From a virus: a stretch of DNA of 21,590 bases. The notes beneath the pieces are model-generated. The model was not told the origin of the DNA. It saw only the letters and a program-made list of their open reading frames with translations, and did no database searches. Shown here one piece after another: positions 1-16,700 of the stretch (its first letter is position 1; each line of letters begins with the position of its first letter). The DNA lies in IMG/VR virus record IMGVR_UViG_3300009421_000016, positions 1 to 21,590 of that record; one strand, 5' to 3'. A program made the translations under genes and the position numbers.

Positions 1-2
1 TG

Positions 3-773
3 CCGCGCCTCGCCGTCGTCGTGGCCATCGCCCTCGCGCTGCTCCTCGCCGCCGCCGCCGCCATCACCGCCGTCAAGGTGCTCGGGCGCGAGCTCCACAC
101 CCATCTCCCCGCCTCCACCTGGCTCGCCGTCGAAAGTGTCGAGGCGCTCGAGGAGCGGATCTACCGCGGCGAGCCGCTCGTCTACGCGCTCCGCGCGCTG
201 CGCCATCGCGAGCACACCGAGCAGCGCACCGCCGTGCTCAGCTGCCGCCCGCTGAACGAGGCCACCGGTCCGCTGCAGGCGATCTGGACCCCGTACGGCG
301 AGCCCCAGCGGCGCCCCCGCCAGCACGTCGCCCCGGCGGTGATCGGCTACGAGGCCGAGGAGCCGGTACCCGAGGCGCTCGCCGAGGCCGAGCGGCTCGA
401 CGGGCTCGAGCGCTGGCGCGGCTCGCTCCCGCTCGAGCCGCACGCCTGCATCCTCGCGTTCCGCTGGAGGATCCGCACCGGGGCGGGGGCCGAGCACGAG
501 ATTTCGGCCCGCTTCGGACAGGAAGTCATCATCGGCGGCGCCCGCCCCGCGCTCGCCCTCGAGGACGGCCCGGACAGTGCCCCGCTGGCCGCCCCGACCG
601 CCGCCGCCGCGCTCGAGGCGGCCGAGACCCCGGAGGAGGGCACCGAGGGGGGCGCCGAGCCGCCCGCGCTCGGCGCCTCAGAGCCCGCCTACGCCCCGGA
701 GGGCGACGCATCGCCCCTCCCCCCGCCCGAGCCGGCGCCCGCGCCGCGCCGCCGCTCAGGCGACCCCCTGTAG
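3..773 (+). CDS. Membrane-anchored protein of unknown function, probably 5'-partial
   Basis: I do not recognise this protein. The frame is open to the left edge, so translation may begin outside the window; the first start codon inside is GTG at 21, which would give 250 residues. There is no clear ribosome binding site before that GTG, and the residues just upstream (Pro-Arg-Leu-Ala-Val-Val-Val) extend the hydrophobic stretch, which favours an upstream start. The N-terminus is one Ala/Leu/Val-rich membrane helix or signal anchor of about 20 residues. A soluble region of about 150 residues with no motif I know follows. The last 60 or so residues are rich in Pro, Ala and Glu, low in complexity and probably disordered. 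The stop overlaps the start of the EAL-domain gene (TAGTG at 771-775), so the two are probably co-translated and may work together, for example by placing the EAL protein at the membrane. That link is inference. Confidence 0.6.
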   Translation, partial: PRLAVVVAIALALLLAAAAAITAVKVLGRELHTHLPASTWLAVESVEALEERIYRGEPLVYALRALRHREHTEQRTAVLSCRPLNEATGPLQAIWTPYGEPQRRPRQHVAPAVIGYEAEEPVPEALAEAERLDGLERWRGSLPLEPHACILAFRWRIRTGAGAEHEISARFGQEVIIGGARPALALEDGPDSAPLAAPTAAAALEAAETPEEGTEGGAEPPALGASEPAYAPEGDASPLPPPEPAPAPRRRSGDPL

Positions 774-1573
774 TGCATCCGGGGGTTCTCGCCTGCGTCG
801 AGCCGGTCTATCAGCCGCAGATCGAGCTCCGTAGCGGGCGCGTGGTCGGGCTCGAGGCACTCGCGCGGTTCCGCGAGCCGTGCGGGCGCCTTCTCGGCGC
901 CGCCGCCGTGCTGCAGTACGCCCAAGACCCACCGGCGCGGCGCGCCCTGGGGCGGCACATGCTGCGCCGCAGCACGCGCGAGATCGCCTCCCTCGGCGTC
1001 GCCTCCGGGCTCGCCCTCGCGGTCAACGTCGAGGCCGATCACTTGAGCGATCCGGCCCTGGTGCCGGACGTGATCGAGGCGCTCGGGCACTCGGGACTCG
1101 CCCCCGATCGGCTCGAGCTCGAGCTGACCGAGACCGAGCCGCTCGCCTACGGCGGTGCCCTCGAGATCAACCGCGCCGCCCTCGAAGGGCTCGGCGTGCG
1201 GCTCGCGATCGACGACTACGGCACCGGCTACGCCGATGCCCCCTACCTCCGCCGACTCGCCCCGCACACCGTCAAGCTCGCCGCGCACTGGATCGCCGAG
1301 CGCACGCCCGAGACCCGCGACGCGCTCGGGCACCTGGTCTCGATCCTGCGAGATGCCGGCGTCGGCATCGTGGCCGAGGGTGTCGAGCACCGCTGGCAGG
1401 ACGCGTTGGTTTCCGCGCACGCGCCGATCGGGCGCGCACAGGGCTATCTCTACTCCCGTCCGCTCACCCTCGAGGCGCTGCGTAGCTCCCTCAGCCTCGA
1501 GCACCGCATCCCGCGCGCCGCCGCCCTCGTCCGCCACCGCCGCCGCCCACCGACCCCGGAGAGCATCCCGTGA
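773..1573 (+). CDS. EAL-domain protein, probable cyclic-di-GMP phosphodiesterase
   Basis: A single EAL domain fills the 266-residue protein. EAL enzymes hydrolyse cyclic-di-GMP to pGpG using two metal ions. The signature EAL is at 28-30, preceded by a YQP motif at 13-15. The metal and catalytic residues can be placed one by one: N85 in the VNV segment, ELTETE at 117-122, the DDYGTGY loop at 147-153 (D147, D148), K168, E202 in AEGVE, and Q223 in AQGYLYSRPL. The one departure is in the KxD motif, normally K-I-D, which reads K168-L-A170. There is no GGDEF, PAS, REC or membrane segment, so this is a minimal stand-alone EAL protein. The start is GTG at 773, overlapping the upstream stop; its own stop overlaps the next GTG (GTGA at 1570-1573). 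An EAL gene in a phage late region is unusual. It may be active, or it may be only a nucleotide sensor. Confidence 0.9.
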   Translation: MHPGVLACVEPVYQPQIELRSGRVVGLEALARFREPCGRLLGAAAVLQYAQDPPARRALGRHMLRRSTREIASLGVASGLALAVNVEADHLSDPALVPDVIEALGHSGLAPDRLELELTETEPLAYGGALEINRAALEGLGVRLAIDDYGTGYADAPYLRRLAPHTVKLAAHWIAERTPETRDALGHLVSILRDAGVGIVAEGVEHRWQDALVSAHAPIGRAQGYLYSRPLTLEALRSSLSLEHRIPRAAALVRHRRRPPTPESIP

Positions 1574-1890
1574 GTGATCTGACGAACCAGCACGGGGAGG
1601 CGCTTCCCGCCGGTACGCACTTCATCAACCTGCACAACTCGAAAAGCACTCACCAGCTGGTCGTCCGCGGCGCGGGGGCAGGGCAAGTGAGCGTGCTCGC
1701 GCATCCCCCCGGCGAGCGCGGCGCGGACGGGCGCGCGACGCATGTCGTCACCGGCCCCGTGCTGATCGAGGGGGGCGTGATCGACCTGAGCGAGCCGCTC
1801 GCCACGATGGTGCTGCTCGTCGGCTGGGTCGACTGCCTCGAGCTCCGCGCAACGGGCGCGTTCTCCTACCGACTGAACAGCGGGGACTGA
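1570..1890 (+). CDS. Small beta-rich protein of unknown function
   Basis: This 106-residue protein starts at GTG 1570, overlapping the stop of the EAL gene. I do not recognise it with confidence. Alternating hydrophobic and polar residues suggest an all-beta fold: strands around INLHN, QLVVRG, QVSVLAH, HVVTGPVLIEGGVIDLS and MVLLVGWVDCLELR. It has no signal peptide, membrane segment or catalytic motif. The ending (G-V-I-D-L-S, then L-E-L-R-A-T-G-A-F-S-Y) is reminiscent of small beta-sandwich proteins of phage virions such as decoration or tail-appendage modules, but this is an impression and not an identification. It lies between an EAL gene and another small beta-rich gene, and is probably made from the same message. 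Confidence 0.7.
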   Translation: MSDLTNQHGEALPAGTHFINLHNSKSTHQLVVRGAGAGQVSVLAHPPGERGADGRATHVVTGPVLIEGGVIDLSEPLATMVLLVGWVDCLELRATGAFSYRLNSGD

Positions 1891-1895
1891 CAGCG

Positions 1896-2276
1896 ATGCG
1901 CGCGCAACGCCTCGGCGCCTTCGGCGCCCCGCGTCCGATGCGGATTCGCGATCGGTGCGGGCCGTCGATCGTGCTCGGCGCCTCCGATCTCGAGATGATC
2001 CATCTCGTCGACAGCGCCCCGACCCTCGGGCCGATCGACAGCGCGCACATCGGGCGCACCCTGGTGCTCCTCAGCTGCGCCACGCGCCGGATCGTGCTCG
2101 AGGAGGAGGAGGACGGGGTGGCGCTCTACGGCGCGCGCACCCTCACCGCCGAGTCCCTGACTCGGATCACCGTCGCCGCCGACGGTGTGTGGTGGGCCGC
2201 GACCTGCCCCGTCAGCGGCGGCGATCTGCAGCGCGGGAAACGCGCGCGCCGCGAGCACGGTCGATTGCTGCCATGA
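1896..2276 (+). CDS. Small protein of unknown function, beta-rich
   Basis: This 126-residue protein begins with ATG at 1896, five bases after the previous stop; an in-frame ATG at 1938 (MRIRDRCG) is a possible shorter start. The central part (about residues 25-105) looks beta-rich. It ends in L-T-R-I-T-V-A-A-D-G-V-W-W-A, which resembles the T-L-x-x-D-G-x-x-W closing strand common in small phage tail-fibre or capsid-appendage domains. The last 25 residues are basic (GKRARREHGR). No enzyme motif is visible. Its stop overlaps the start of the ParB-like gene (ATGA at 2273-2276). With the preceding gene it may form a pair of small virion or anti-defence proteins, but neither role is shown by the sequence. 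Confidence 0.65.
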   Translation: MRAQRLGAFGAPRPMRIRDRCGPSIVLGASDLEMIHLVDSAPTLGPIDSAHIGRTLVLLSCATRRIVLEEEEDGVALYGARTLTAESLTRITVAADGVWWAATCPVSGGDLQRGKRARREHGRLLP

Positions 2277-3175
2277 GCACCACCAAACCCACGCTCGCCG
2301 TCGAGATGCGCCGGACCGAGGCGCTGATCCCCTACGCGATGAACGCCAAGGTGCACACCCCGGAGCAGATCGCGGCCATCGCCGCGTGCATCCGGGAGTT
2401 CCATTTCTGCAACCCCGTTCTGATCGACCCCGAGGGCGGAATCATCGCCGGGCACGGGCGGGTGCTCGCCGCCCGAAAGCTCGCGCTCGAGGAGGTTCCG
2501 ACGATCACCCTCGGGCATCTCACCGACGCCCAACGACGGGCCTACATCATCGCCGACAACCGTCTCGGCGAGATCGGCGGCGGCTGGGATCGGGAACTGC
2601 TCGAGACCGAGCTCGAGAGCCTTTCAGCCGAGGAGATCGACCTCGAGCTCGTCGGCTTCGAGATCGGGAACCTCGATATCGCGCTCGGCCCCCTCGACGG
2701 TCTCGCCCCGGAGGCCTCGGCCGAGCCCGAGTCGGGGACCGACCCCGAGTCGGGGACCGCCCCCCCGGAGAACTACTCGCGCAAGATCGAGGCGCCGATC
2801 TACGAGCCGCACGCCGATAGAGCGCCCCCCGTCACGGACCTGTTCGACCGCACCCGCGCCCTGGCGCTGCTCGAGCGCATCGACGCCGTCGCCGACGAGC
2901 TCGAGCCCGAGCTCGTCGACTTCCTCCGCTGCGCCGCCGAGCGTCACACACGGTTCAACTTCCGCAACATCGCCGAGTTCTACGCCCACGCCGACGCCGA
3001 CGTGCAGGCGCTGATGGAGGACAGCGCGCTCGTGATCATCGACTTCGATCGCGCCGTCGAGCTCGGCTTCGTCAAGCTCTCAGAGGAGGTACTGCGCCTT
3101 CGCGCCGAGAGCGACGAGCTCGCCGAGAACAAGGACGACGACGGGGAGGAGGACGATGAGCGCCTCGCCGCCTGA
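2273..3175 (+). CDS. ParB/sulfiredoxin-fold protein, phage DNA-modification type
   Basis: The start is ATG 2273 (MSTTKPTLAV), overlapping the previous stop. The frame stays open upstream, but that part only shadows the previous gene. The protein has 300 residues. Residues about 15-105 form a ParB N-terminal-like domain: L-I-P-Y-A-M-N-A-K, then P-V-L-I-D, then the box GGIIAGHGRVLAARKL at 55-70, then Y-I-I-A-D-N-R-L. This variant is typical of phage and plasmid proteins near methylases and terminases, not of chromosome partition ParB, and there is no ParA beside it. A Pro/Glu/Ser linker (about 145-165) follows. A second block (about 166-275) carries N-Y-S-R-K-I-E-A-P-I-Y-E-P and later I-A-E-F-Y-A-H-A-D and A-L-V-I-I-D-F-D. 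I recall such a block in phage proteins next to TAGT-like glycosyltransferases. The acidic C-terminus ends inside the next gene, a 20-base overlap. Likely role: DNA or nucleotide binding partner of the glycosyltransferase. Confidence 0.85.
   Translation: MSTTKPTLAVEMRRTEALIPYAMNAKVHTPEQIAAIAACIREFHFCNPVLIDPEGGIIAGHGRVLAARKLALEEVPTITLGHLTDAQRRAYIIADNRLGEIGGGWDRELLETELESLSAEEIDLELVGFEIGNLDIALGPLDGLAPEASAEPESGTDPESGTAPPENYSRKIEAPIYEPHADRAPPVTDLFDRTRALALLERIDAVADELEPELVDFLRCAAERHTRFNFRNIAEFYAHADADVQALMEDSALVIIDFDRAVELGFVKLSEEVLRLRAESDELAENKDDDGEEDDERLAA
2726..2758 (+). repeat. 18-bp period tandem duplication in the ParB-protein linker
   Basis: A 15-base unit, CCCGAGTCGGGGACC, occurs at 2726-2740 and again at 2744-2758. 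Being 18 bases apart, the copies keep the frame and encode a repeated P-E-S-G-T-D/A in the linker between the two conserved blocks. It looks like a recent in-frame slippage event in a flexible linker. Confidence 0.8.
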
Positions 3176-4049
3176 TCCGTTCGAGAGCTTCTGTGCCCTG
3201 ATCCTGACGAACCGCCGCAGCGAGCACGTCCACACCTACTCGACGCTGCGCCGCAACGGCTACACCGGGCCGATCGTGCTCGTGGTCGATGACGAGGACC
3301 CGAGCGTAGAGGACTACCGTGCACGCTTCGGCGACGACGCCGTGCAGGTGTTCGACAAGCGGGCCATCGCCGCACGCTTCGACGAGGGCGACAACTTCGA
3401 GGACCGACGCTCGATCTTCTACGCACGCAATGCCTCGTTCGACATCGCCGAGGCGCTCGGCTACCGCTACTTCATCCAGCTCGACGACGATTACACCGGC
3501 TTCGGCTTCCGATTCCGAGCCGACGGCACCTACGGCACCGGCGTGGTGCACAACCTCGACGGACTCCTTCGTGCCGTGCTCGCGTTCTTCATCGCCACCC
3601 CGGCACTGAGCTCCGTTGCGCTCGCGCAGGGCGGGGACTTCATCGGCGGGGGCGCCAACAGAACTACAGCCGCCTCTATCTGCACGCTCCGCAAGGCAAT
3701 GAATAGCTTCGTTTGCGATACGCGGCGTCGCTTCGAGTTCCTCGGTCGCGTCAACGAGGACGTGAACACCTACAGTGCATCGCAGCGCAGCGGCCGAGCG
3801 CTGTTCCTCACCCTCAACGCCGCCTCGATCACGCAGCTCACGACCCAGGCGAATGCCGGCGGGCTGACCGAGATGTACCGCGACTCCGGCACCTACGTGA
3901 AGAGCTTCTACTCGGTGCTGTACGCCCCCTCGGCGGTGCAAATCGCGATGATGGGGAACATCAATCGCAGGCTTCATCACCACGTGCGTTGGGACGCGGT
4001 CGCGCCGCTGATCCTCTCCGAGCGCCACCGGCGCGCCTCCGCGCCGTAG
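3156..4049 (+). CDS. TAGT-like DNA glycosyltransferase (GT-A fold)
   Basis: The protein has 297 residues. ATG 3156 is preceded by a strong ribosome binding site (GGGGAGGAGG, 3143-3152) inside the end of the ParB-like gene. Residues 14-50 read A-L-I-L-T-N-R-R-S, then T-Y-S-T-L-R-R-N-G-Y-T-G, then V-L-V-V-D-D-E-D, a Rossmann-like nucleotide-sugar half. D-E-G-D-N-F-E-D-R-R follows at about 76-85, and a DxD-type metal site, F-I-Q-L-D-D-D-Y, with the aspartates at 110-112. The second half holds N-E-D-V-N-T-Y near 200, then G-G-L-T-E-M-Y-R-D-S-G-T-Y-V-K-S and an H-H-H-V-R-W near the end. These match my recollection of the TET/JBP-associated glycosyltransferase family of phages, which adds sugars to hydroxymethylated bases in DNA. 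Acting on DNA is inferred from family and context. No TET/JBP or hydroxymethylase gene lies in this window. Confidence 0.82.
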   Translation: MSASPPDPFESFCALILTNRRSEHVHTYSTLRRNGYTGPIVLVVDDEDPSVEDYRARFGDDAVQVFDKRAIAARFDEGDNFEDRRSIFYARNASFDIAEALGYRYFIQLDDDYTGFGFRFRADGTYGTGVVHNLDGLLRAVLAFFIATPALSSVALAQGGDFIGGGANRTTAASICTLRKAMNSFVCDTRRRFEFLGRVNEDVNTYSASQRSGRALFLTLNAASITQLTTQANAGGLTEMYRDSGTYVKSFYSVLYAPSAVQIAMMGNINRRLHHHVRWDAVAPLILSERHRRASAP

Positions 4050-4239
4050 GGCGCGCGCCCCAGGGCAGGGGAGGGGGAGGGGAGGGGAGGGGGGATTTCC
4101 CGCGCGCGCGCCCCCCCCACCGGCCGCTCAGGGCGCTACCGTTCAAGCGCGAACCAGGCAGGTTTTCCAGGGCTACGGACGTAGACAGGCGCGGCCGATA
4201 CCCCCGGCACCGCCCCGGAAATTCCCGCCAATAAAAAGC
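4050..4239 (+). other. Non-coding gap before the terminase genes
   Basis: This 190-base gap is the largest stretch without a convincing gene. It begins with a GC palindrome over the upstream stop (GGGCGCGCGCCC, 4049-4060), followed by the G-run motif listed separately, an alternating CG stretch and a run of eight C (4111-4118). The second half is less GC-rich and ends with an A-rich patch (AATAAAAAG, 4230-4239 region), rare in this genome, just before the small terminase start. Packaging signals often lie in or near small terminase genes, so this is a candidate region for one, and a candidate promoter region. I could not identify a definite -10/-35 pair, cos or pac site. Confidence 0.5.
4063..4094 (+). 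promoter_or_regulatory. G-quadruplex motif on the + strand
   Basis: Six consecutive G runs are separated by one or two bases: 4063-4065, 4068-4071, 4073-4077, 4079-4082, 4084-4087 and 4089-4094. Five runs have at least four G, with single-A loops between the last five. This exceeds the usual four-run rule for intramolecular G-quadruplexes. It lies 14 bases after the glycosyltransferase stop and about 145 bases before the small terminase. The final six-G run could instead pair with the C run at 4111-4118. Effects on transcript end formation, the next transcript, or replication are all possible but not shown. Confidence 0.7.
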
Positions 4240-4563
4240 GTGGCCCACACCCCGACGGCCGAGACCCGCGATCAGGTCCACAGCTTCGCTGCCGTCGGCA
4301 TCGCGCAGGACGATATCGCGCGCGTGCTCGGGATTGATCCGAAGACGCTCCGCAAGCACTACCGCGACGAGCTCGACACCGCCGCGATCCGAGCCAACGC
4401 CGCCATCGGCGGCGCGCTCTTCAACAAGGCGAAGCGCGGGGACGTCACGGCTCAGATTTGGTGGACAAAGGTGCGCATGGGCTGGAAGGCCGACGCCGGT
4501 AGCGACTCGAGCGAGGATCTTGTGGAGGCGCTCCGCGCGCTCGTGGCGAAGCTGCCGGCGTGA
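4240..4563 (+). CDS. terS: Terminase small subunit
   Basis: This 107-residue protein starts at GTG 4240. Small terminases bind the phage DNA at the packaging site and load the large subunit. Residues about 13-45 form a helix-turn-helix (V-G-I-A-Q-D-D-I-A-R-V-L-G-I-D-P-K-T-L-R-K-H-Y). The second half (I-G-G-A-L-F-N-K-A-K-R-G-D, then A-Q-I-W-W-T-K-V-R-M-G-W-K) is the oligomerisation segment typical of short small terminases, where G-D-x-x-A-x-I-(F/W)-W-L-K-x-R-x-G-W-K recurs. Length is normal for the compact type. Its stop overlaps the GTG start of the large subunit (GTGA, 4560-4563), as expected for translational coupling of the two terminase parts. Confidence 0.92.
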   Translation: MAHTPTAETRDQVHSFAAVGIAQDDIARVLGIDPKTLRKHYRDELDTAAIRANAAIGGALFNKAKRGDVTAQIWWTKVRMGWKADAGSDSSEDLVEALRALVAKLPA

Positions 4564-5924
4564 GCGGCGACGCCCTGGAGGCGCCCGACGCGAGCGCGCT
4601 CCCGGCCGCGCTCCGCGCGAGCCTCGATCGCTGGTACCCCCTTCGCGATCACCCCGTACAGCTGGCGCTGATCAACGCCGTGCCCTCCGGCATCCGCTTC
4701 CCGGTCGTCCCCGCCGGGCGCCGCTCGGGGAAAACCGAGCGATTCAAGCGCTTTCTAGTCAAGCAGGCGTTCGAGGGCGGGCCGGGCGATCACTTCTTCG
4801 CCGCCGCGCCGACGCGCGATCAGGCAAAGAAAATTTTCTGGGAGGATCTGAAACTCCTGTCCTTCGCCGCGCTGCACGCGCGCCGCCCCTCCGAGTCCGA
4901 GCTACGGATCTATCTCGATAACGGCGCTCAGATCCACGTCCTCGGGCTCGATCGTCCGCAGCGGATCGAGGGCGTGGCGTGGACGGGGGGCGGGATCGAC
5001 GAGATTGCCGACATTCGCGAGGCGGCGATCGACTCGAACATCATGCCGGCGCTGAACACCGTCGACCCGCGTCGGCCCGACTACCGCGCGTGGTGTTGGT
5101 TCCTCGGCGTCCCCGACGGGCTCAATCACTACTACCGCATGGCCCAAGCGGCCACCCTCGAGAGCAACCCCGAGTGGGCGCTGTTCACCTGGACGAGCGC
5201 GGAGATCCTGCCCGTGGACGTGATCGAGGCGGCCCGGCGGACGATGTCCGAGCGGCAGTTCCTGCAGGAATACTGCGCGAGCTTCGAGGTCGCCACCGGC
5301 CGGATCTATGACCAGTACGCGGCGGAGAACCTCACCAGCGCGAGGATCGAGCCACACGAACAGCTTCTCTGGTCGCACGATCAGAACTTCACCCCGCTCT
5401 CCTCCTCGATCTCCGTCCGACGAGGGGAGGCGCTCTATCTCCTTGACGAGATCGTGCTCACGAGCGCGGTTGCGCGCCAGGCGGCCGAGGAGTTCGTCGA
5501 GCGCTTCGAGGGGCACAAGAACAAGCATGTGCTGATCTTCGGCGACCCTGCCGGGCGCGCCGGTGAGAAGCACGGGCATCCCTCCGATTACCGCGAAATC
5601 GAGAACGTCCTACGGGCGAACGGGTGGACGTTCACGCGCCGCGTGGCACGAAAAGCGCCAGCGATCAAGGACCGACAGAACGCGGTGCGCGCGCGCGTGT
5701 GCAACGCCGCCGGTGAGCGCCACCTGTTCGTCAACCCCGTCAGCGCGCCGTGGTGCCACGAGGGCCTGGCCACCGTGCAGCTACAGCCGGGCTCGACGTT
5801 CCAGGAAGACCCGACGAACGACTACCAGCACATCACTACCGCCATCGGCTACCAGGTCGCCGTGCTCTGGCCCGTCTCGCGCGAGATCGTGCGCGCCAGC
5901 GGACCGGTTGCCGGCATGGCCTGA
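4560..5924 (+). CDS. terL: Terminase large subunit (packaging ATPase and nuclease)
   Basis: The 454-residue motor protein pumps DNA into the prohead and cuts the concatemer. The ATPase half shows a Walker A motif G53-R-R-S-G-K58-T, an A-A-A-P-T-R-D-Q-A motif near 82-89, and a Walker B-like G-G-G-I-D147-E148. The C-terminal RNase H-like nuclease half begins near 270, with candidate metal ligands D274 (S-H-D-Q-N-F-T-P) and D329 (F-G-D-P-A-G). The third conserved acid, usually in H-x-x-D-A, reads H424-I-T-T427-A. The protein is slightly short for the family, but both halves are present. The start is GTG 4560, overlapping the small subunit stop. The portal gene follows after about 38 bases. Confidence 0.95.
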   Translation: MSGDALEAPDASALPAALRASLDRWYPLRDHPVQLALINAVPSGIRFPVVPAGRRSGKTERFKRFLVKQAFEGGPGDHFFAAAPTRDQAKKIFWEDLKLLSFAALHARRPSESELRIYLDNGAQIHVLGLDRPQRIEGVAWTGGGIDEIADIREAAIDSNIMPALNTVDPRRPDYRAWCWFLGVPDGLNHYYRMAQAATLESNPEWALFTWTSAEILPVDVIEAARRTMSERQFLQEYCASFEVATGRIYDQYAAENLTSARIEPHEQLLWSHDQNFTPLSSSISVRRGEALYLLDEIVLTSAVARQAAEEFVERFEGHKNKHVLIFGDPAGRAGEKHGHPSDYREIENVLRANGWTFTRRVARKAPAIKDRQNAVRARVCNAAGERHLFVNPVSAPWCHEGLATVQLQPGSTFQEDPTNDYQHITTAIGYQVAVLWPVSREIVRASGPVAGMA

Positions 5925-5962
5925 GCTCGAGCCGAGCCGCACACGAGAGGACACGCGCCCCG

Positions 5963-7336
5963 ATGCCGATCACCACCGAACACCCCGAGTACACGCGCAA
6001 GAAAGCGCTATGGCGCACGATCGCCGACTGCCTCGAAGACGAGAGCATTGTGAAGGCCGCCGGCCCCACCTACCTGCCCAAGACCGGCGGGATGGAGGCG
6101 AACGATGCGAGCGGGAAAAGCTATGACGCGTATCGCGCCCGCGCGCGGTTTCCGGACATCACCAGCGAGGCACTGACCGGGATCATCGGGCTGGTGTTCG
6201 AGGAGCCGCCCGAGGGGGCGAGCGAGGAGCCGATCACCCCGAGCGGGCAGACCAATACCGATCTCGCGCGCGACACCCTTCGCGGCTGCGCCACGCGCGG
6301 GCGCGACATCCTCCTCGTCGACGCCCCGCGCGAGGGCGGAGAGCCGTTCGTCACGCGCTACGGCGCCGAGGCGCTAATCAACTGGCGGGTGGACCCCGCG
6401 CGCCCTTCGGACTTACTCCTCGCGGTGCTCGAGGAGCAGGAGCCGGCGGCGGCGGATCTGTACGGGCACGAGACCCGCACCGTGTACCGGCGATACTTTC
6501 GCGAGAGCTCCGAGGCGCCGATCGAGGTCACGCGCTGGATTGTCGAGGACGAGGTGGAGCGCCGGATCGAGCCCCCGATCCTCCTCCCGGTGCCGTTCAT
6601 GCCGATTGTGTGCGTCGGCTCGATCGACATCCTTCCCGGCTGCGACCCGCTGCCGCTCTTGCCCGTCGGGCGCTGCGCTCTGGCCTACTACCGAAAGAGC
6701 GCCAGCTATGAACACTCGCTCTACCTCGCAGGCCAACCGACGCCCTACGTCACGGGGCTCGATCAGGAGCAGTACGACCAGATCCGCCGCCAGGGCATCG
6801 GCTCCTCCGCGCTCTGGCATCTCGGGGACGATGGCCGCGCGGGCTTCCTCGAGACGAGCGGCATCGGACTCAAGGAGCAGCGCGAGGGCATGGCGATGGA
6901 GCTCCACCAGGCGGAGACCTACGCCGTTCGCCTCGTGCAGCGTCAGGCGGGCGGTGTGGAGTCGGCGGCGGCGATGGCGATGCGCGCCGCCGCACAGCAC
7001 GCCTCGATCTACTCGCTCGCCGATGGCGTGAGCGATGGCGTGCAGCGCGCCGAGCGGATGCGCGCGCGCTGGTCCGGGCGCGCGGACCCTGCCCGCTTCC
7101 GCCTCCGCACGGAGTTCTCCGAGCAGTACGCGAGCGAGCAGATGGTGGCCGCGATCGACCGCGCGGTGACCAGCGGCAACGCCCCGCGATCGGTGCTCTT
7201 CGAGACGTTCCGGCGCGCGAACCTCACGAGCAAGAGCGACGAGGAGCTTGCCGCCGAGATCGAGGCGAGCGGGGCGATTCCCTTCGAGGAGCGCGCCGCG
7301 AGCGCGTCCGGGGGTGAGGGGCGCCAGGGCGCATGA
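5963..7336 (+). CDS. Portal protein, DUF4055-like
   Basis: The start is ATG 5963 (MPITTEHPEY); the frame is open further upstream but there overlaps the terminase gene, so I reject that extension. The protein has 457 residues. A GAGAGG 12 bases upstream is the likely ribosome binding site. The N-terminal pattern T-Y-L-P-K-T-G-G, then S-Y-D-A-Y-R-A-R-A-R-F, then G-I-I-G-L-V-F-E-E-P-P, then R-D-I-L-L-V-D-A-P and E-A-L-I-N-W-R-V-D matches my memory of the DUF4055 family found in the portal position of many siphoviruses. The portal is the dodecameric ring at the head vertex through which DNA passes and to which the tail attaches. Position between the large terminase and a MuF-like gene supports this. 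Its stop overlaps the next start (ATGA, 7333-7336). Confidence 0.9.
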   Translation: MPITTEHPEYTRKKALWRTIADCLEDESIVKAAGPTYLPKTGGMEANDASGKSYDAYRARARFPDITSEALTGIIGLVFEEPPEGASEEPITPSGQTNTDLARDTLRGCATRGRDILLVDAPREGGEPFVTRYGAEALINWRVDPARPSDLLLAVLEEQEPAAADLYGHETRTVYRRYFRESSEAPIEVTRWIVEDEVERRIEPPILLPVPFMPIVCVGSIDILPGCDPLPLLPVGRCALAYYRKSASYEHSLYLAGQPTPYVTGLDQEQYDQIRRQGIGSSALWHLGDDGRAGFLETSGIGLKEQREGMAMELHQAETYAVRLVQRQAGGVESAAAMAMRAAAQHASIYSLADGVSDGVQRAERMRARWSGRADPARFRLRTEFSEQYASEQMVAAIDRAVTSGNAPRSVLFETFRRANLTSKSDEELAAEIEASGAIPFEERAASASGGEGRQGA

Positions 7337-8370
7337 GCGCCCCCGATATCGAGCGCCTTCTACGTCGACGGCTCTACCTACAGCGCTACGTCAGTGCGCT
7401 CGACGAGGAGCTCACCGCGCTCGCCGAGCCGGGGGATGCACGCCTGCTCGCCGCCCTCGGCGACTTCCTCGGGCGCGCCGACGCGCGCGCGCTCGGCGCC
7501 CTCGGGCGCGCGCGGCGCACCCATCCGCTCGTGCGCGAGTTGCACGCGCAGATCGCCGCCGTCCTCGGCGAGCAGCGCGCCGCGACCCTCGCGCTGATCG
7601 CCGAGGCGCTCCCCGATCTTGCCGCGCGAGAGCTCCGCGTCACCGCCGAGGCGATCAGCCTCGCCGCGGTACCGAGCGCGCGGGGGCTGGCCACCGAGCC
7701 GGCTGATGGGAGCCCCCCGGCGGTGCTCCTCGGCGCCGCGCTCGCGCTCTACGCGCGGCGGCTGAACGCGGAGATCGTGCGCGCGGCGACGAGCGAGACA
7801 CCCGAGGCGATGCTCTCGCTCGTGCGCGGGAGCGGCGCGCTCCGCCAGCGCGACGGGCTTCTCCACTGGCGCCGCACGCGCCTGCTGCGCCCGAACGTGG
7901 ACTTGATCGTGAACGCCACCGCCTCGAACGCGGCGCGGCGCGCGTACCGCCTCGCCCGCGTCGAGCTCGTCGACCATCTCGCCACGCTCGACTACCGCAC
8001 CTGCCCGCGCTGCCGGGCGGCCGAGGCGGGCGGACCGTACCGCCTCGGCACGGAGCCGGGGCCGACGCTGCACCCGCGCTGCCGCTGTCTCTCGATACCG
8101 GCCGGCTACCTCGCCGAGATCGTGCGCCCGTTCGTGGCCGATGCCCGACCGGTGAAGGACATCCCCAAGGGCGAGCGCGCCGGGAAGATCGGCCGGACGC
8201 GGCTCTCGATCGAGCAGTTTTTCGCGCGCATGAGTGCCGAGGACCGTCGCGCCTACCTCGGCCCCACCCTCGCCGCGCGATGGGAGCGCGGGGTAGTGAC
8301 GGACATCCGCGACCTTGTGGACGCCCGAACGCTCGCCCCGCTCCGACTCGATCAGATCCCCGAGCGCTAA
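7333..8370 (+). CDS. MuF-like head morphogenesis protein (minor capsid)
   Basis: The 345-residue protein starts at ATG 7333, overlapping the portal stop. The family (Mu gpF / SPP1 gp7) binds the portal and helps start head assembly or DNA ejection. The recognisable part is near residues 210-255: V-D-H-L-A-T-L-D-Y-R-T-C-P-R-C-R, then a spacer, then T-L-H-P-R-C-R-C-L-S-I-P. This C-x-x-C ... H-P-x-C-R-C arrangement is the Cys/His hallmark of MuF proteins and may bind a metal. The first 160 residues are Ala/Leu/Arg-rich and helical. After the hallmark comes a further 90-residue tail (about 255-345) with E-Q-F-F-A-R-M-S-A-E-D-R-R-A-Y-L-G-P; no toxin domain is visible there. The gene ends 96 bases before the scaffold start. 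Confidence 0.88.
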   Translation: MSAPDIERLLRRRLYLQRYVSALDEELTALAEPGDARLLAALGDFLGRADARALGALGRARRTHPLVRELHAQIAAVLGEQRAATLALIAEALPDLAARELRVTAEAISLAAVPSARGLATEPADGSPPAVLLGAALALYARRLNAEIVRAATSETPEAMLSLVRGSGALRQRDGLLHWRRTRLLRPNVDLIVNATASNAARRAYRLARVELVDHLATLDYRTCPRCRAAEAGGPYRLGTEPGPTLHPRCRCLSIPAGYLAEIVRPFVADARPVKDIPKGERAGKIGRTRLSIEQFFARMSAEDRRAYLGPTLAARWERGVVTDIRDLVDARTLAPLRLDQIPER

Positions 8371-8396
8371 CCCTCTGCCGCTCAGGCACCGCCCGT

Positions 8397-8464
8397 GTAG
8401 GCCGAAACCCGTGGTGAACCGCGGGGCGATGTTCGCCCCGCCTCCACCACGAGGCTGTGCCTAC
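8397..8464 (+). promoter_or_regulatory. Three-tiered RNA hairpin directly before the scaffold start codon
   Basis: Nested inverted repeats sit between the MuF and scaffold genes. The outer stem is GTAGGC (8397-8402) with GCCTAC (8459-8464). The middle stem is GTGGTG (8411-8416) with CACCAC (8445-8450). The inner stem is GCGGGGCG (8421-8428) with CGCCCCGC (8434-8441), and the loop is ATGTT. All three stems are perfect. The structure ends two bases before ATG 8467 and places the only weak ribosome binding match (GAGG, 8451-8454) in an internal loop. There is no T run after it, so a simple rho-independent terminator is unlikely; translational control or RNA processing fits better, by inference. 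Confidence 0.75.
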
Positions 8465-8466
8465 CA

Positions 8467-9213
8467 ATGCCGTTCAAGTTCTCCGAAATCGAGGGGTTCG
8501 ACCCCGAGCTCGCCGCCCGACTCGACGCGGACGACAGCGTCAGTACCGCGCTCGCCGCGCACCACAAAGCCGAAATCGAGGGCGGAGTGGCCGCCCGCGT
8601 CGAGGTCGCCAAGGGCGAGTTCAAGAAGAAGATGGACTCGATGGGCACCAAGCTCGCGGACGCGGAGGCGCGTGCCGAGGGACGGGCCGCGATCGACCCC
8701 GAAGAGCTCAAGGCGCTACGGCTCGCCGCCGACAAGAGCCCAGAGCTCACCGCGCAACTCGAGGCGATGAAGAAAACGGCAGCCGACGCCGAGACGGCTG
8801 CCAAGCAACGGGCGGAGGAGAACGTCGCGCTACGGCGCTCGCACGTGGTCACGCAGGCCGTGAACGAGCACAACGCGGCAAACCCCACGGTGGCTCTCAA
8901 GCCCGACGCACACGACCTGGTCGAGATGCTCGCGGCGAACACGCTGCGATACGACGAGGACGCGAAGACGTTCCGCGTCTACCAGGGGCAGGAGATCGTC
9001 GCGACCGACAAGGGCGCGGCGACGCCGCAGGACTGGATCGCCGGACTCCGTGAGTCCCGCCCCAGTCTCTTCGCGGCACCGGTCGGGGGCGGTGCGCCCG
9101 GCTCCCGAGGATCCGGCAGTGCCGGCGAGAAGCAGATCAGCCGCAGCGACTTCGAGGCCTTGGCCCCCGCGCGCCAAGGCGAGGTCGCGCGAACCCACGC
9201 CATCACTGACTGA
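8467..9213 (+). CDS. Scaffold-like protein
   Basis: This 248-residue protein lies between the MuF gene and the major capsid gene, the standard place for a scaffold that shapes the prohead. It has a short N-terminal segment (M-P-F-K-F-S-E-I-E-G-F-D-P-E-L), then a charged Ala/Glu/Lys-rich region (about 35-130) that looks like coiled coil, including a stretch of repeated A-E and K-K patterns. A more ordered region (about 135-200) holds V-E-M-L-A-A-N-T-L-R-Y and F-R-V-Y-Q-G-Q-E-I-V-A. A Gly/Ser linker then leads to a short C-terminal helix (I-S-R-S-D-F-E-A-L-A-P-A-R-Q-G-E-V-A), a type of ending I associate with phage scaffolds and capsid-associated proteins. Assignment rests on composition and position, not on a catalytic motif. 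Start ATG 8467 follows a strong hairpin. Confidence 0.78.
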   Translation: MPFKFSEIEGFDPELAARLDADDSVSTALAAHHKAEIEGGVAARVEVAKGEFKKKMDSMGTKLADAEARAEGRAAIDPEELKALRLAADKSPELTAQLEAMKKTAADAETAAKQRAEENVALRRSHVVTQAVNEHNAANPTVALKPDAHDLVEMLAANTLRYDEDAKTFRVYQGQEIVATDKGAATPQDWIAGLRESRPSLFAAPVGGGAPGSRGSGSAGEKQISRSDFEALAPARQGEVARTHAITD

Positions 9214-9227
9214 GAGAGACGCCACCC

Positions 9228-10373
9228 ATGGCCAACAACCTCACGGGTCTTATACCCACCATCTACACCGCGCTCGATATCGTCCGGCGCGAACTGATCG
9301 GGTTCATCCCCAACGTTTCCGTCGACGCTGCCGCCACCGGCGCCGCGGTCGGGCAGACGGTGACCGCGCACGTCGTGCCCCAAGGCGGGCTCGAGGATAT
9401 CGTGCCCGGCGCGCAGCCGGCCGCGAGCGGCGATCACGAGCTCGGGAGCGTCTCGGTCGGGATCACCAAGAGCAAGGCGTACCCGATCCGCTGGACCGGA
9501 GAGGAGCAGCTGGCCCTCGGCCAGAACGGGCAGTACAACGCCATCCTGGCCGATCAGTTCGCGCAGGGCTTTCGCACGCTCTCGAACGCGGTCGAGGCGG
9601 ATCTCGGCTCGCTGTACACGAAGTTCGCCCGCGCGATCGGCACCGCCGGCACTACCCCGTTCGGCGTCGCCGACGATCACTCGGATTGGTCGAACGCCAA
9701 TCGCGTGCTCGACGAGCTCGGGTGCCCGCAATCGGGGCGCGTCATGGTCCTCGGGAGCCAGGCTCGAGCCAAGGTCGAGGGCGTGCAGTCGGGGCTCTTC
9801 AAGGTCAACGAGGCCGGCGACGCGGGCGCGATGCTCCGCGAGCGGCAGCTGCGCGAGATCCACGGCTTCACGATGGGCTTCTCCGCTGGCGTGCGCAATC
9901 ACAGCGGCGGCACCGGCTCGGGCTACCTGGTGAACAACGGCGCAGGGTACGGGGCCGGTGACACCGCCCTCGTGCTCGACACCGGCACCGGCACCGTGCT
10001 GCCCGGCGACGTGGTGACGATCGCAGGCTCGGGCGAGCAATTCGTCGTCGCCTCGAAGTCCGGCTCCGAGCTCACGCTCAACGCGCCGGGGCTCGACACC
10101 GTGATCGTCGACGACGCGGCCGTGACCGTGGTCGGGAACTACACGGCGAACGCCTTCTTTCACCGCAACAGTCTGCTCCTCGCCGCGCGCGCGCCGGCAA
10201 TGCCCGCCGGTGGCGACTCCGCCGACGACGTGATGACGGTGACCGATCCGGTCAGCAACATCACGTTCCAGGTGGCGATGTATCGCCAGTACAAGCAGAT
10301 CAAGTACGAGATCGGATTGGCGTGGGGCGTGGACGCGCCGAACGCGGGCTTGGCAGGCGTCCTGCTCGGCTGA
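9228..10373 (+). CDS. Major capsid protein, P22 coat (gp5)-like
   Basis: The 381-residue protein starts at ATG 9228 after a GAGAGA-type site. Its beginning, M-A-N-N-L-T-G-L-I-P-T-I-Y-T-A-L-D-I-V, with R-E-L-I-G-F-I-P just after, is the characteristic N-terminus of P22 gp5-like coats, an HK97-fold branch. Other family features are G-Q-T-V-T-A-H-V-V-P (residues 42-51) and a central beta-rich insertion, about residues 230-305 (G-D-T-A-L-V-L-D, then L-P-G-D-V-V-T-I-A-G, then V-V-G-N-Y-T). A conserved C-terminal part follows (F-H-R-N-S-L-L-L-A-A-R-A-P and Y-R-Q-Y-K-Q-I-K-Y-E-I-G-L-A-W-G-V). It is somewhat shorter than the P22 protein (about 430 residues). Many copies build the icosahedral shell over the scaffold. 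Confidence 0.94.
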   Translation: MANNLTGLIPTIYTALDIVRRELIGFIPNVSVDAAATGAAVGQTVTAHVVPQGGLEDIVPGAQPAASGDHELGSVSVGITKSKAYPIRWTGEEQLALGQNGQYNAILADQFAQGFRTLSNAVEADLGSLYTKFARAIGTAGTTPFGVADDHSDWSNANRVLDELGCPQSGRVMVLGSQARAKVEGVQSGLFKVNEAGDAGAMLRERQLREIHGFTMGFSAGVRNHSGGTGSGYLVNNGAGYGAGDTALVLDTGTGTVLPGDVVTIAGSGEQFVVASKSGSELTLNAPGLDTVIVDDAAVTVVGNYTANAFFHRNSLLLAARAPAMPAGGDSADDVMTVTDPVSNITFQVAMYRQYKQIKYEIGLAWGVDAPNAGLAGVLLG

Positions 10374-10378
10374 TCGAC

Positions 10379-10675
<297 letters not shown>

Positions 10676-10679
10676 TCCG

Positions 10680-11186
10680 GTGGCGCTGATCGTCGAGGAC
10701 GGGAGCGGCGTTGCCGAGGCCGAGAGCTACGTGAGCGTCGAGGCGGCGGGCGTGTTCTTCAGCGCGCGCGATCTCGCGCCCCCCGCGGAGGGGCTTCTAC
10801 GCCGCGCCATGGACTACCTCGAGACGCTTTCGTGGGCGGGGAGGGTGGCCGAGGGCACGCAGCCGCTGGCCTTCCCGCGCGCCGGGCTCACGAACCGAAA
10901 CGGGGCGCCGCTCGGCGCCGATCTCGTGCCGCCCGAGCTCGTGCGCGCACAGCTCTGGCTCGCCTACTACATCGGGCAGGGCACCGACCCAGGGGCGCCT
11001 GCCGCGCTGAACGTGCGCCGCGAGAAGGTCGGCCCGATCGACACGGAGTACGCCGTCGGGGTCGGCGCCCGCCACGCGATCCGTATCGAGGAGCTCCCGC
11101 GCGTCTACCGCGAGCTCGAGCCGTTCCTCGCCAACGATAGCGGCACCCTCGTTCGCACGAGCGTGCTCGGGATCGATCGCGCGTGA
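10680..11186 (+). CDS. DnaT-like head-tail connector protein
   Basis: The 168-residue protein starts at GTG 10680 (M-A-L-I-V-E-D-G-S-G-V-A-E-A-E-S-Y-V-S). This opening, with R-R-A-M-D-Y-L-E, then F-P-R-A-G, then V-P-P-E-L-V-R-A-Q-L-W-L-A-Y-Y and R-R-E-K-V-G-P-I-D-T-E-Y, matches a phage family that databases often label DnaT-like ssDNA-binding protein but which sits at the head-tail connector position. The helical core is what one expects of an adaptor ring below the portal. The label DnaT should not be read as a replication role. The start is four bases after the previous stop and its stop overlaps the next start (GTGA, 11183-11186). Confidence 0.8.
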   Translation: MALIVEDGSGVAEAESYVSVEAAGVFFSARDLAPPAEGLLRRAMDYLETLSWAGRVAEGTQPLAFPRAGLTNRNGAPLGADLVPPELVRAQLWLAYYIGQGTDPGAPAALNVRREKVGPIDTEYAVGVGARHAIRIEELPRVYRELEPFLANDSGTLVRTSVLGIDRA

Positions 11187-11536
11187 GCGGCCCGCACGAG
11201 AGAGGGGCGGCGAGCGCCGAGCGCGCCATCGCGCGCCACGGGCGCGATATCACGCTGATCGTGCCGGGGGCACCCACCGGCTCGAAGCGCGATCCGCAGC
11301 CGGGGGCGCCGACCGAGATCGTGGTCCGCGCGCTCGAGCTCGAGATCGCCTCCTCCGAGATCGACGGGAGCGTGATCCAAGGGCACGACCGGCGCTATCT
11401 CGTGGCCGGCTCCGTCGCGGTCACCACCGCGATGCGCCTCAGAGATGACGTGCCGGCGGCGTACGAAATCGTACGCACGCAGCCGACGCAGCCGGGCACC
11501 ACGCGGCTTGTCACCGAAATCCTGGCCAGGCTCTGA
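11183..11536 (+). CDS. Putative head closure / head-tail joining protein
   Basis: This 117-residue protein starts at GTG 11183, overlapping the previous stop. It contains H-G-R-D-I-T-L-I-V-P-G, a flexible stretch rich in Pro and Gly, then E-I-V-V-R-A-L-E-L-E-I, then D-G-S-V-I-Q-G-H-D-R-R-Y-L-V-A-G and Y-E-I-V-R-T-Q. A short beta barrel with a mid-protein loop is typical of head closure proteins (SPP1 gp16 or lambda gpFII type), and gene order (connector, this gene, HK97 gp10-like, terminator-like) fits. No specific family motif is strong enough for a firm name. The next gene begins seven bases after its stop. Confidence 0.65.
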   Translation: MSGPHERGAASAERAIARHGRDITLIVPGAPTGSKRDPQPGAPTEIVVRALELEIASSEIDGSVIQGHDRRYLVAGSVAVTTAMRLRDDVPAAYEIVRTQPTQPGTTRLVTEILARL

Positions 11537-11543
11537 GCGCCCC

Positions 11544-11915
11544 GTGCCCGCCCTCTCCTCACTCGTGGCCGAGTACAAGCGCCGACTGCTGTTCGTCGCG
11601 CAGCGAGCCACCGAGATCACCGCCACGCGCGTGTACGTGCGTACGCCGGTGGACTCCGGGGCGCTGCGCGCGAGTTGGACGCCGAGCCTCGATGGCGCCT
11701 ACCGCCTCGCCTCGAGCGCGGGGGATGCCACGCCCCTCGCCCCGGTCATCGCGCGACTCACCCTCGGGGCCGTCTTCACGCTCCGAAACCGCCAGCCCTA
11801 CGGCCCGGCGATCGAATACCACGGGCATAGCGGCCAGGCGCCCGCCGGGATGCTCGGGCCGAGCATTGCCGAGTGGGGAGCGAACGTTCGGGAGGCCACC
11901 CGTGCCGCCCGATGA
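11544..11915 (+). CDS. HK97 gp10-like tail completion/neck protein
   Basis: The start is GTG 11544 (M-P-A-L-S-S-L-V-A-E-Y-K-R-R), giving 123 residues; the frame is open further upstream but there overlaps the previous gene. The recognisable core is T-R-V-Y-V-R-T-P-V-D-S-G-A-L-R-A-S-W-T-P near 24-43, the T-P-V-D-(T/S)-G-x-L-(R/K)-x-S motif of the HK97 gp10 family. F-T-L-R-N-R-Q-P-Y-G-P-A-I-E-Y-H-G-H-S then follows near 77-95, with a short C-terminal helix. Proteins of this family join the tail to the head or complete the tail end. The last 14 bases overlap the next gene, whose ribosome binding site (GGGAGG, 11890-11895) lies inside this one. Confidence 0.85.
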   Translation: MPALSSLVAEYKRRLLFVAQRATEITATRVYVRTPVDSGALRASWTPSLDGAYRLASSAGDATPLAPVIARLTLGAVFTLRNRQPYGPAIEYHGHSGQAPAGMLGPSIAEWGANVREATRAAR

Positions 11916-13356: not shown

Positions 13357-13754
13357 ACGCGCTGCTCGAGTACGCGCAGATGCTCGCCTGGCTCCACCAG
13401 AGGCCCGAGGAGGCGCACCGCTGCAACGGCGAGCGCTACGGGCTCGACGCGCCCGAGGTGGAGCCGGAGAGCGAGCACCTGGCGCGCCTGCTCGACGAGC
13501 TCGGGCACGTCACCCACACCGGCATGGGCGCCGCCCCCCTCAGCTACGCCGAAATCGACGCCTACGCGCGCCTCACGGGGCTGGTGCTCACGCGGGGGGA
13601 GGCGATGGGGCTGAGGATGATGTCCGCCGCCTTCGCCGCGACCGCCAACATCCCCGATGCCCCGTGTCCGATCGAGGACGATCATGCGCGGCGCACGATC
13701 GACGAGGTGAACATCCGGGCGCTGATCCGAATGTGCGAGGCCGGCGATGGCTGA
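13329..13754 (+). CDS. Tail assembly chaperone, frameshift extension (lambda T-like part)
   Basis: This part is read after a -1 shift at 13323-13329. The joined product has 136 residues of the upstream frame followed by 141 here (L-H-H-G-C-P-G-S-L-D-A-L-L-E-Y-A-Q and on), 277 in all. It could also be started alone at ATG 13380 (M-L-A-W-L-H-Q-R-P), but no clear ribosome binding site stands before that codon. The sequence contains Y-A-Q-M-L-A-W-L, then L-L-D-E-L-G-H-V-T-H-T-G-M-G, then L-S-Y-A-E-I-D-A-Y-A-R-L-T-G and E-A-M-G-L-R-M-M-S-A-A-F. These fit a helical gpT-like domain that binds the tape measure and recruits tube subunits. It overlaps the tape measure start by eight bases (13747-13754). 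Confidence 0.85.
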   Translation, partial: LHHGCPGSLDALLEYAQMLAWLHQRPEEAHRCNGERYGLDAPEVEPESEHLARLLDELGHVTHTGMGAAPLSYAEIDAYARLTGLVLTRGEAMGLRMMSAAFAATANIPDAPCPIEDDHARRTIDEVNIRALIRMCEAGDG

Positions 13755-16700
13755 TCTTGCTGACCTCGGATTCAACGTCAACACGGGCGACCTGGAGCGC
13801 GCCGCCCGTGTGCTCGACGAGCTCGAGCGGCGCGGGCGCGCGGTCGAGCAGTCCGGGCGTGGGGCCGGGCGCGGGCTAGATGAAGGGATGCGCGGGGCGG
13901 TCGGTGGGATCGGCGCCGCCTCGGCCGCTACCAGCGGCTTCGCCGCGAAGCTCGGCGGTATCGGCTCGCTCGTCGGCGGGCTCGGGCTCGCGGCGCTGGC
14001 GAAGAACGCGGTCGATATGGCCGCGCGTTTCGGCGGCGCGATGAACACCGTGCAGTCGAAGCTGCTGATCTCCAAGGAGGCAATGAGCGGGCTGCGCGAG
14101 CAGGCGAAGGCGCTCGGGTCAACGACGAAGTTCAGCGCGACCGAGGCGGCCGAGGGGATGGGCTTTCTCGCACAGGCGGGGCTCGACGCCGAGGAGATTT
14201 TCCAGGCCATGCCCTCGACGCTGCAGCTCGCGACGGCCGCCGGGATCGAGCTCGCGGACGCGGCCGATATCGCAACCAACGTCATGGGCGCCTTCCGCAT
14301 GGAGGTGGGAGACCTGCCCTCGATCATGGATGTGCTCTCGGCCACTGCGGCGAAATCGAACACTTCCGTGCACGAGCTCGCGATGGCGCTTCGAGACAGC
14401 GCGCCGGTGGCCGCCGAGTTCGGTGTCGACATGTACGAGATGTCCGCCGCCGTCGGCGGCCTGGCCAACAGCGGGATCAAGGCAACGGTTGCCGGCACGA
14501 CGCTCAAGAACATGTTCCTGAACCTCGTTACTCCGGCGGGGCAGACACAGAAGGCGTTCGACAAATTCAACCTCAGTACGAAGGACTTTTTCCGAACGAG
14601 CGCCGAGGGCAAGACCGAGTTCCTCGGCATGGCGAACATGATGGAGGTGCTCCGCTCGCGCGGCGTGGACGCGGCCGGGGCGATGGAGATTTTCGGCCGC
14701 GAGGCGGGCCCCGGAATGCTGATCGCGCTCGCCCAAGGCGGGGCGGAGCTCGAGGGGTTCGAGGTCGAGCTCAAGAAGGTCGGCGTTGCCGCCAAGAGCG
14801 CCTCGATCATGTCCGAGGGGCTGGCGGGCGAGCTTCAGAAGACCGCCTCGATGTGGGAGGGACTGAACCTCGCCTTCATGGACGGGGGCGGTACCTCGCT
14901 CGCGGTGAAGGGGTTGCACCTGGTACAGAAAGCCATCGCGTTCGTCGCCACCGACGGGCTCGACTACCTCACCGCGTCGGTCGCTCGGGTCAAGACGGCG
15001 TGGGCGGACTTCCAGAAGAACCTGGCCACGTCCGAGGCGCTGCAGTTCGTTGCGCTACGCACCCTCGGCGACGCGATCGTCTCACTCGGCCGGGCGCTCA
15101 CGCCCGTCGTGCCCTACCTCGATGATTTCGCCATCGCCGCCGCCGCGATCGTCGCCGCCGGCGCCGGTATCGCCATCGTTGCCGCCGGGCTCTCGGCCGT
15201 CGCCGCCGTGGTGCTCTCCCCGGTGGTGCTCGGCGTCGGCGCGCTCGCCGCCGCCGCCGTCACGATCCGCGCCAACTGGGACGGTATCAGCGCGTGGTGG
15301 GCGGGGCTGTGGGAGGGACTCGATGGGGACGTGGGGCTCTTCGCCCAACGCCTCGGCGCCTCGCTCAAGTCGCTCGGCGGGAGCTTCATCGCCGCCGCCG
15401 GCGAGAGCGTGCGCGCGTACGCCGCGGAGCTCAACACGCGGTTGTCCACGGTGCTCGGTGAGATCCGCTGGCCGACGCGCTATGAAGTACTCGGCGCGGC
15501 CTCCGATCTCGTCGCCGGCTTCGGCACGCTCGCGCTGACGGGTCTGCGCGTGCTCACCACCAGCCTCGGCACGGGGCTCGGATCGTTGCTCGGGAACGTC
15601 CAGTGGCCGACGGCGGAGGAGGTGGGGCGCGCCGCCGCGAATTTCGTGCTCGGCTTCGTGCGCCTCGCCGCCGACGCCCTGGCCGCGCTCGACGAGGGGC
15701 TCCGGGGCGCGGGGGAGGGGATCGAGTGGCCGACGCCGCTCGAAGTGATCGAGGGGGCCGCCAGTCTCTTGAAGGGCTTCGCCGATACCGCCGGTGTCGC
15801 CGTTTCGACCTTCGCCACCACGCTCGGCAAGGGGCTACTGAACGCGGTCACGGGCGCGCTCGAGGCGCGCGCGGGCGATCTCAAGCGCGCCGCCATCAAC
15901 GCGTTCGACTTCCTGCCCTTCATCGGCGACGAGGTCGAGAAACGCGCGCGTCCGGCCGCCGAGGTCGTGCCCGAGACCATCGCCGCCACGCTCTCGCGCG
16001 AGGCGCCCGTGCTCCGGCGCGCCTCCGAGGAGCTTGCCGAGGTCGTGAGCACGGGGCTCGAGTCCGGCGTGGCGGGCGCCGAGCGCGCGGGGGAGGACAC
16101 GGGGGGCGGGTTCTGGCGCGGGATCGCCAGCACGCTCGGGCTGATCGAGGAGGTCTCCGCCACGATGGGCGGGACGCCGGAGAAGGTCGCGCGCAAGGAG
16201 TCCGAGACGAAGTCACCCTCGCGCGCACTGTGGCGCGTCGGGCGCGACATCGCTCTCGGCTTCGCCGGTGGTATGCGCGAGAACCTCCGAGCAGTCGGCG
16301 AGGCGGCCGGGATCCTCTCCGATCAAGCGCTGAACGTGTTCAACAACTTGAACGAGCGCCTGAAGGCGGAGTCGATCCTGCTGATCCAGGGGGCGGAGGC
16401 GGCCGAGCGATACCGGCTCGAGAAGCAGGGGATCGTCGGCGCGGCGGCCGACGAGATCGTGAAGAAGGGGCAGCTGAACGAGCAATATCGGGACGAGAAG
16501 GAGCGGCTCGACGGGGTGAACGGCGCGATGCGCGACTTGGTCATCCGCCGCGCGATCCTCACCGAGCGTCTCGAGAACGGGGCGGACGCCGCGCGCCGCC
16601 TCGAGCTCCAGACCCAAAAGCTGACCGACACCGAGATCGACGCGCGGATGGAGGCGGAGAAGCGCACGCAGCGGCTCGCCGAACAGGTGCGCGCTGTGGA

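Follow-up and report, generated by a model that had tools for sequence, protein, structure and literature searches.

The window, as we call the whole stretch of DNA analyzed here, is the 21,590-base IMG/VR virus contig IMGVR_UViG_3300009421_000016, and every recognizable gene in it lies on the + strand (Table 1). A stand-alone EAL gene with a GTG start encodes a 266-amino acid protein and is physically joined to its neighbors, overlapping the upstream gene g1 by 1 nt (TAGTG) and the downstream gene by 4 nt (GTGA), as an earlier note on this DNA had described. The same note had placed the gene next to the packaging module. The phage-gene setting holds, whereas the adjacency is loose, with four genes (1570-4049) intervening before terS at 4240. 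The GC3 value of the EAL gene is 0.90, compared with 0.87-0.91 for the structural genes. At positions 1-4600 of the window, a search that covered the sigma-70 consensus only and is weak in DNA of about 72% GC found nothing resembling a promoter or terminator. Based on the 1-nt and 4-nt overlaps and the lack of promoter or terminator matches in this region, we rejected the possibility that the gene is a phage moron with its own promoter and terminator. A 282-amino acid antisense ORF at 689-1537 was discarded as a high-GC artefact.

Further downstream, the gene at 10376-10675, between those for the major head protein and Ad1, encodes a small protein containing an (EP)n run, and tail genes come after the connectors. 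The ParB-like gene is located directly upstream of the TAGT gene in the window (2273-4049) and in 79 of the 80 IMG/VR loci containing TAGT, an arrangement suggesting that the two work together in DNA hypermodification. Nothing resembling a TET enzyme was recognized in the window genes that were scanned.

Table 1. Genes of the window, with positions, strand and the basis of each assignment.
Feature	Position	Strand	Basis or remark
g1, membrane-anchored protein	21..773	+	TM helix; no Pfam, PHROG or NCBIfam family
EAL-domain protein, stand-alone, predicted c-di-GMP phosphodiesterase	773..1573	+	PF00563, catalytic residues, AF2 model, Foldseek
Small protein without family	1570..1890	+	4-nt overlap of its start with the EAL stop; missing from L006
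Small protein without family	1896..2276	+	ORF only
ParB-like protein	2273..3175	+	phrog_620, E 2.9e-52
TET-associated DNA glycosyltransferase (TAGT)	3156..4049	+	PF20691, E 1.2e-26; phrog_842, E 2e-58
Terminase small subunit (terS)	4240..4563	+	phrog_309, E 2e-10
Terminase large subunit (terL)	4560..5924	+	phrog_2; 66-68% to Nipunavirus and Stenotrophomonas phages
Portal protein (DUF4055)	5963..7336	+	phrog_145, E 3.2e-82
Head morphogenesis protein	7333..8370	+	phrog_241
Scaffold	8467..9213	+	phrog_206
Major head protein, P22-coat type	9228..10373	+	phrog_283, E 2.8e-90; 55% to E. coli/Salmonella phages
Connector genes Ad1, Hc1, Ne1	10680..11915	+	phrog_477, 161, 169
Long ORF, putative tape-measure gene	13747..19605	+	size and position

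Active site and predicted fold of the EAL protein

The Pfam family PF00563 matches residues 10-230 of the EAL protein (profile positions 14-236 of 236) with a score of 147.9 bits against a cut-off of 31.3 and an E-value of 3.9e-43, which rules out a chance match. This single domain represents the whole annotated content of the protein. In a phmmer search of solved structures, 43 sequences were matched, nearly all of the EAL family, with 2r6o as the top match (E = 1e-26). EAL enzymes cleave c-di-GMP to pGpG by a two-metal mechanism, and the metal-binding residues involved are those found intact in the window protein. All nine metal-binding and catalytic positions are present (E28, N85, E117 within ELTE, D147, D148, K168, E202, E205 and Q223). 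The Pfam match and the residue check thus agree with the earlier note on the gene, its length and the residues it listed; its description of the catalytic set as almost complete was too cautious. In an alignment of 14 EAL sequences, E28, E117, D147, D148, K168, E202, E205 and Q223 are invariant and N85 is nearly so. Loop 6, the dimer/active loop, canonically DDFGTGYSS, reads DDYGTGYAD in the window protein and DDFGTGAAS in the EAL protein of a second contig described below (L006), with the core kept and the final residues differing, and residues 36-59 of the window protein, canonically P..FIP.AE..G, are degenerate.

The AF2 model of the protein shows an EAL-type barrel (pLDDT 86, pTM 0.84), with low confidence for the tail from residue 245. 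Its top Foldseek match is 3n3t, an EAL structure with c-di-GMP (TM 0.82, 2.2 Å), and comparison with the c-di-GMP-bound structures 3n3t, 5mf5 and 4hjf gives TM values of about 0.8 at 2.2-2.4 Å. Fold, catalytic set and domain length are shared with bacterial EAL phosphodiesterases, namely those of Thiobacillus denitrificans (2r6o/3n3t), PA3825 and YahA, at about 25-39% identity. The window enzyme belongs to a known family and is ordinary within it. In contrast to bacterial EAL domains, which are usually found within GGDEF-EAL or sensor proteins, it consists of a bare domain encoded in a phage operon.

A second phage contig and the slot between lysis and packaging genes

A terminase search of IMG/VR identified 80 loci, the best of which is located on L006 (IMGVR_UViG_3300009415_000012), a contig of 9,264 bases from a different metagenome than the window. 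Identities to the window are 74% for terL, 56% for the portal, 51% for the scaffold and 76% for the MCP. The gene order of L006 is endolysin (phrog_465), holin-like, g1, EAL, HslV-like, terS, terL, portal, scaffold and MCP. Its EAL gene is likewise stand-alone, occupies the same slot as in the window with the same g1 partner, overlaps its neighbors by 4 nt on both sides and is flanked by phage genes on either side, endolysin upstream and terminase downstream. In the window, phage genes are present downstream of the EAL gene and g1 upstream. L006 supplies the lysis cassette as the immediate upstream side of g1-EAL; with the window beginning within or right at g1, the far-upstream side was read from L006 alone. 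The earlier note's view of the gene as phage-borne instead of part of a host flank is upheld by the virus record and by the position of the L006 EAL gene between endolysin/holin-like genes and terminase. The phage genes on either side of the L006 gene also answer the refuting condition set in that note, a host chromosome with the gene outside the phage boundaries.

The two phage EAL proteins are about 40% identical and have all catalytic residues in common. Retention of these residues, although the proteins are otherwise different at about 60% of positions, implies that catalysis is likely under selection in the two phages. Downstream of EAL the contigs diverge, with an HslV-like gene in L006 versus two small genes, ParB and TAGT in the window. 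The HslV-like peptidase of L006 (phrog_1040, 2338-2811) is encoded directly before terS and overlaps the EAL gene. Head genes with 100% protein identity to those of the window are found at 1-5540 of a third contig, IMGVR_UViG_3300027498_000016, which ends short of the EAL gene, indicating that the window phage was assembled twice and that the same phage is present in another sample. Overall, two phages carry the g1-EAL arrangement. No EAL gene was found in whole-record searches of the other 47 terL-related records or, within the DNA covered, in other terL-, MCP- or TAGT-related viral loci.

The g1 protein consists of an N-terminal TM helix, a domain with two conserved cysteines and a Pro/Ala/Glu-rich tail, and its predicted structure has a pLDDT of 40. 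As its reading frame runs without a stop back to base 3, the start of g1 is probably located upstream of the contig end. The sole relative found in IMG/VR is encoded on L006 (50% identity over 148 amino acids), likewise directly upstream of EAL, and an alignment-based search of IMG/VR returned L006 itself alone. No g1 was detected among 754 proteobacterial genomes (369 of the class of Massilia and 385 of the class of Rhodospirillum), so this search gave no host assignment.

Related phages carry other genes in the corresponding region. In Nipunavirus PaMx25 (terL 66%), terS is preceded by genes for a lytic transglycosylase, a holin and a TM/coiled-coil protein, gp04, which we read from its sequence as spanin-like; g1 was considered as a homologue of gp04 and comparison showed no homology. 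Rac-type E. coli phages (MCP 55%, TAGT 53%), named here for TrkG, which is known from the Rac prophage, possess the order holin, endolysin, spanin, TrkG, ParB, TAGT, small gene, terS and terL. The slot of the window EAL gene, between spanin and ParB-TAGT-terminase, is thus occupied by TrkG in phages such as vB_EcoS-673R7, and this arrangement is seen at 4707-9905 of record ON470616. TrkG is a protein unrelated to EAL and its gene is separated from its neighbors by gaps of about 120-140 nt on either side. Because what fills the slot differs between the window (EAL), PaMx25 (a spanin-like gene) and Rac-type phages (TrkG), it looks like an accessory-gene site, or hot spot, with exchangeable content. 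The absence of intergenic gaps at EAL, unlike at TrkG, points to expression together with the lysis and packaging genes.

Distribution of EAL domains in viral sequence collections

The motif DD[YF]GTGY identified 165 EAL loci in IMG/VR, a number that may undercount divergent phage EALs as the motif misses L006. Nearly all of the best 80 loci, which were inspected, encode long multidomain EAL proteins and, bar cut fragments and L006, all but one are found in ORFs of at least 375 amino acids. Another stand-alone EAL (282 amino acids) was located in an enterobacterial prophage flank beside a chemotaxis receptor and was rejected as bacterial. Searching IMG/VR for relatives of the L006 EAL returned L006 itself alone, and a search with the EAL alignment added a few distant multidomain EALs. 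EAL matches are present in 26 of 50,697 named phage records versus 1,970 of 72,556 plasmid records, and several of the 26 represent evident bacterial sequence or transposon cargo. Seven of nine phage EAL records examined encode proteins of 519-853 amino acids; the remaining two are an unverified Listeria clone (249 amino acids) and Salmonella phage SJ1, with the mer-transposon protein Urf2 and a YdiV-like protein.

The known phage-borne cases differ from the window gene. The EAL protein of Citrobacter phage Chris1 is a 519-amino acid, GGDEF/EAL-annotated protein encoded beside the integrase end, and Urf2 of SJ1 is cargo of a mer transposon. At 6453-7142 and 7923-8570, the P1-like SJ1 genome carries a YdiV-like EAL, annotated as an anti-FlhDC factor, and a Tn21-type Urf2 EAL. 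PHROGs 11823 and 22021 also contain an EAL domain, but their profiles are 690-780 positions long. The EAL model had no match at E <= 0.001 in a viral structure library, itself not complete, which fits the rarity of phage EALs. A tree built from 165 EAL domains places the window and L006 proteins as sisters with moderate support (SH-aLRT 82) on very long branches, a pairing that long-branch attraction could explain; the bacterial EALs were picked by similarity to the window protein and a closer donor may lie outside the sample. Our search of the open-access literature turned up no account of a phage lysis/packaging operon with a stand-alone EAL gene. The coupling of such a bare EAL gene to one for a membrane protein, as seen in the lysis-packaging operon of two phages, looks like a rare variant.

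Possible roles of the EAL protein during infection

The second messenger c-di-GMP sets the choice between swimming and biofilm life, and surface sugars under its control can be phage receptors. The EAL protein is probably a stand-alone phosphodiesterase encoded by an accessory gene of a siphovirus whose head module is of the Rac-like ParB-TAGT-terminase type, made late and lowering host c-di-GMP. Its gene, in a seemingly exchangeable slot between lysis cassette and packaging genes, would be translated together with the upstream membrane-protein gene, most likely late in infection, and location in a late lysis/packaging operon suggests that the enzyme acts near the end of infection. Judging by its intact active site, the enzyme would linearize c-di-GMP to pGpG and the host pool would fall. 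Synthesis of c-di-GMP-dependent exopolysaccharide and adhesins would consequently be shut off before lysis, and the most probable benefit would be departure from the biofilm, either of the progeny or of the infected cell itself. An effect on host state, proposed in the earlier note for motility or biofilm, can reasonably be inferred; naming biofilm release as the benefit is guesswork based on timing. A more specific version, in which g1 and EAL, translated with the lysis genes, form a dedicated late signal-erasing step that drains c-di-GMP before lysis so that matrix and adhesins are dropped and progeny escape the biofilm, with the g1-EAL pair as a previously undescribed phage module, is doubtful and offered as a tentative idea.

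Several other explanations were considered. The enzyme could act in superinfection exclusion by stripping c-di-GMP-dependent surface glycans or pili, the receptors of rival phages, from infected cells or lysogens. In E. coli, the receptor glycan of phage N4 needs c-di-GMP, and cells are protected from N4 by PdeL, a phosphodiesterase that is catalytically active (PMC8669472, PMC8669469). The slot also takes cargo potentially able to act in lysogens, for example TrkG of Rac-type phages. We nevertheless regard this role as unlikely given that the EAL gene, unlike the gap-flanked TrkG, overlaps its neighbors and has no visible promoter of its own, and that late expression would be too late against most rival phages. 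Alternatively, the protein could be non-catalytic, a YdiV- or FimX-like regulator acting by c-di-GMP binding or protein contact, possibly paired with g1. There are indeed EAL proteins whose motifs are near-complete but which are inactive or work via protein contact. The coupling of adjacent g1 and EAL genes in both phages, with g1 found nowhere else, and the degenerate EAL of SJ1 (annotated YdiV) are consistent with such a function, which we consider quite unlikely all the same: YdiV- and FimX-type proteins lose several catalytic residues, whereas the two phage proteins, about 40% identical, retain every one, and g1 has almost no cytoplasmic part to hold EAL. A YdiV-type degenerate EAL was rejected on the same nine intact positions.

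Very unlikely, and the least supported of the proposals made in the earlier note, is a counter-defence function in which EAL destroys the cyclic dinucleotide, c-di-GMP or 3',3'-cGAMP, that serves CBASS-like systems as an alarm. Some bacterial STING systems do use c-di-GMP, which counts in its favor. A solved stand-alone EAL of Vibrio cholerae (6ij2) is titled 'versatile', and phage nucleases and sponges directed against CBASS signals provide a precedent (reviewed in PMC12072042). However, the EAL gene is part of what looks like a late lysis-packaging unit and not of an early region, and there was no match in PADLOC, a resource for defence genes and not for counter-defence ones. EAL enzymes also normally prefer c-di-GMP over cGAMP. 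The anti-CBASS proteins Acb1 and Acb2, of families not known to be related to EAL, would have cyclic dinucleotide targets in common with it only if the anti-defence reading were right. Finally, a bacterial EAL gene could have been joined onto a phage contig as host flank or by misassembly, since most EAL matches in virus collections are long and host-type and many are found on host flanks or in unverified clones. The matching gene order in L006, a contig from another metagenome in which phage genes flank EAL on either side, the overlaps and the GC3 continuity of the EAL gene with phage genes, and the third contig repeating the window head genes at 100% protein identity, with the EAL gene beyond its end, make such an artefact extremely improbable.

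If the favored reading of a late-made phosphodiesterase is correct, a bare EAL enzyme encoded in the lysis-packaging region would represent direct viral control of the c-di-GMP switch during the lytic cycle. Phages with such a gene may reset the biofilm or surface state of their host late in infection.
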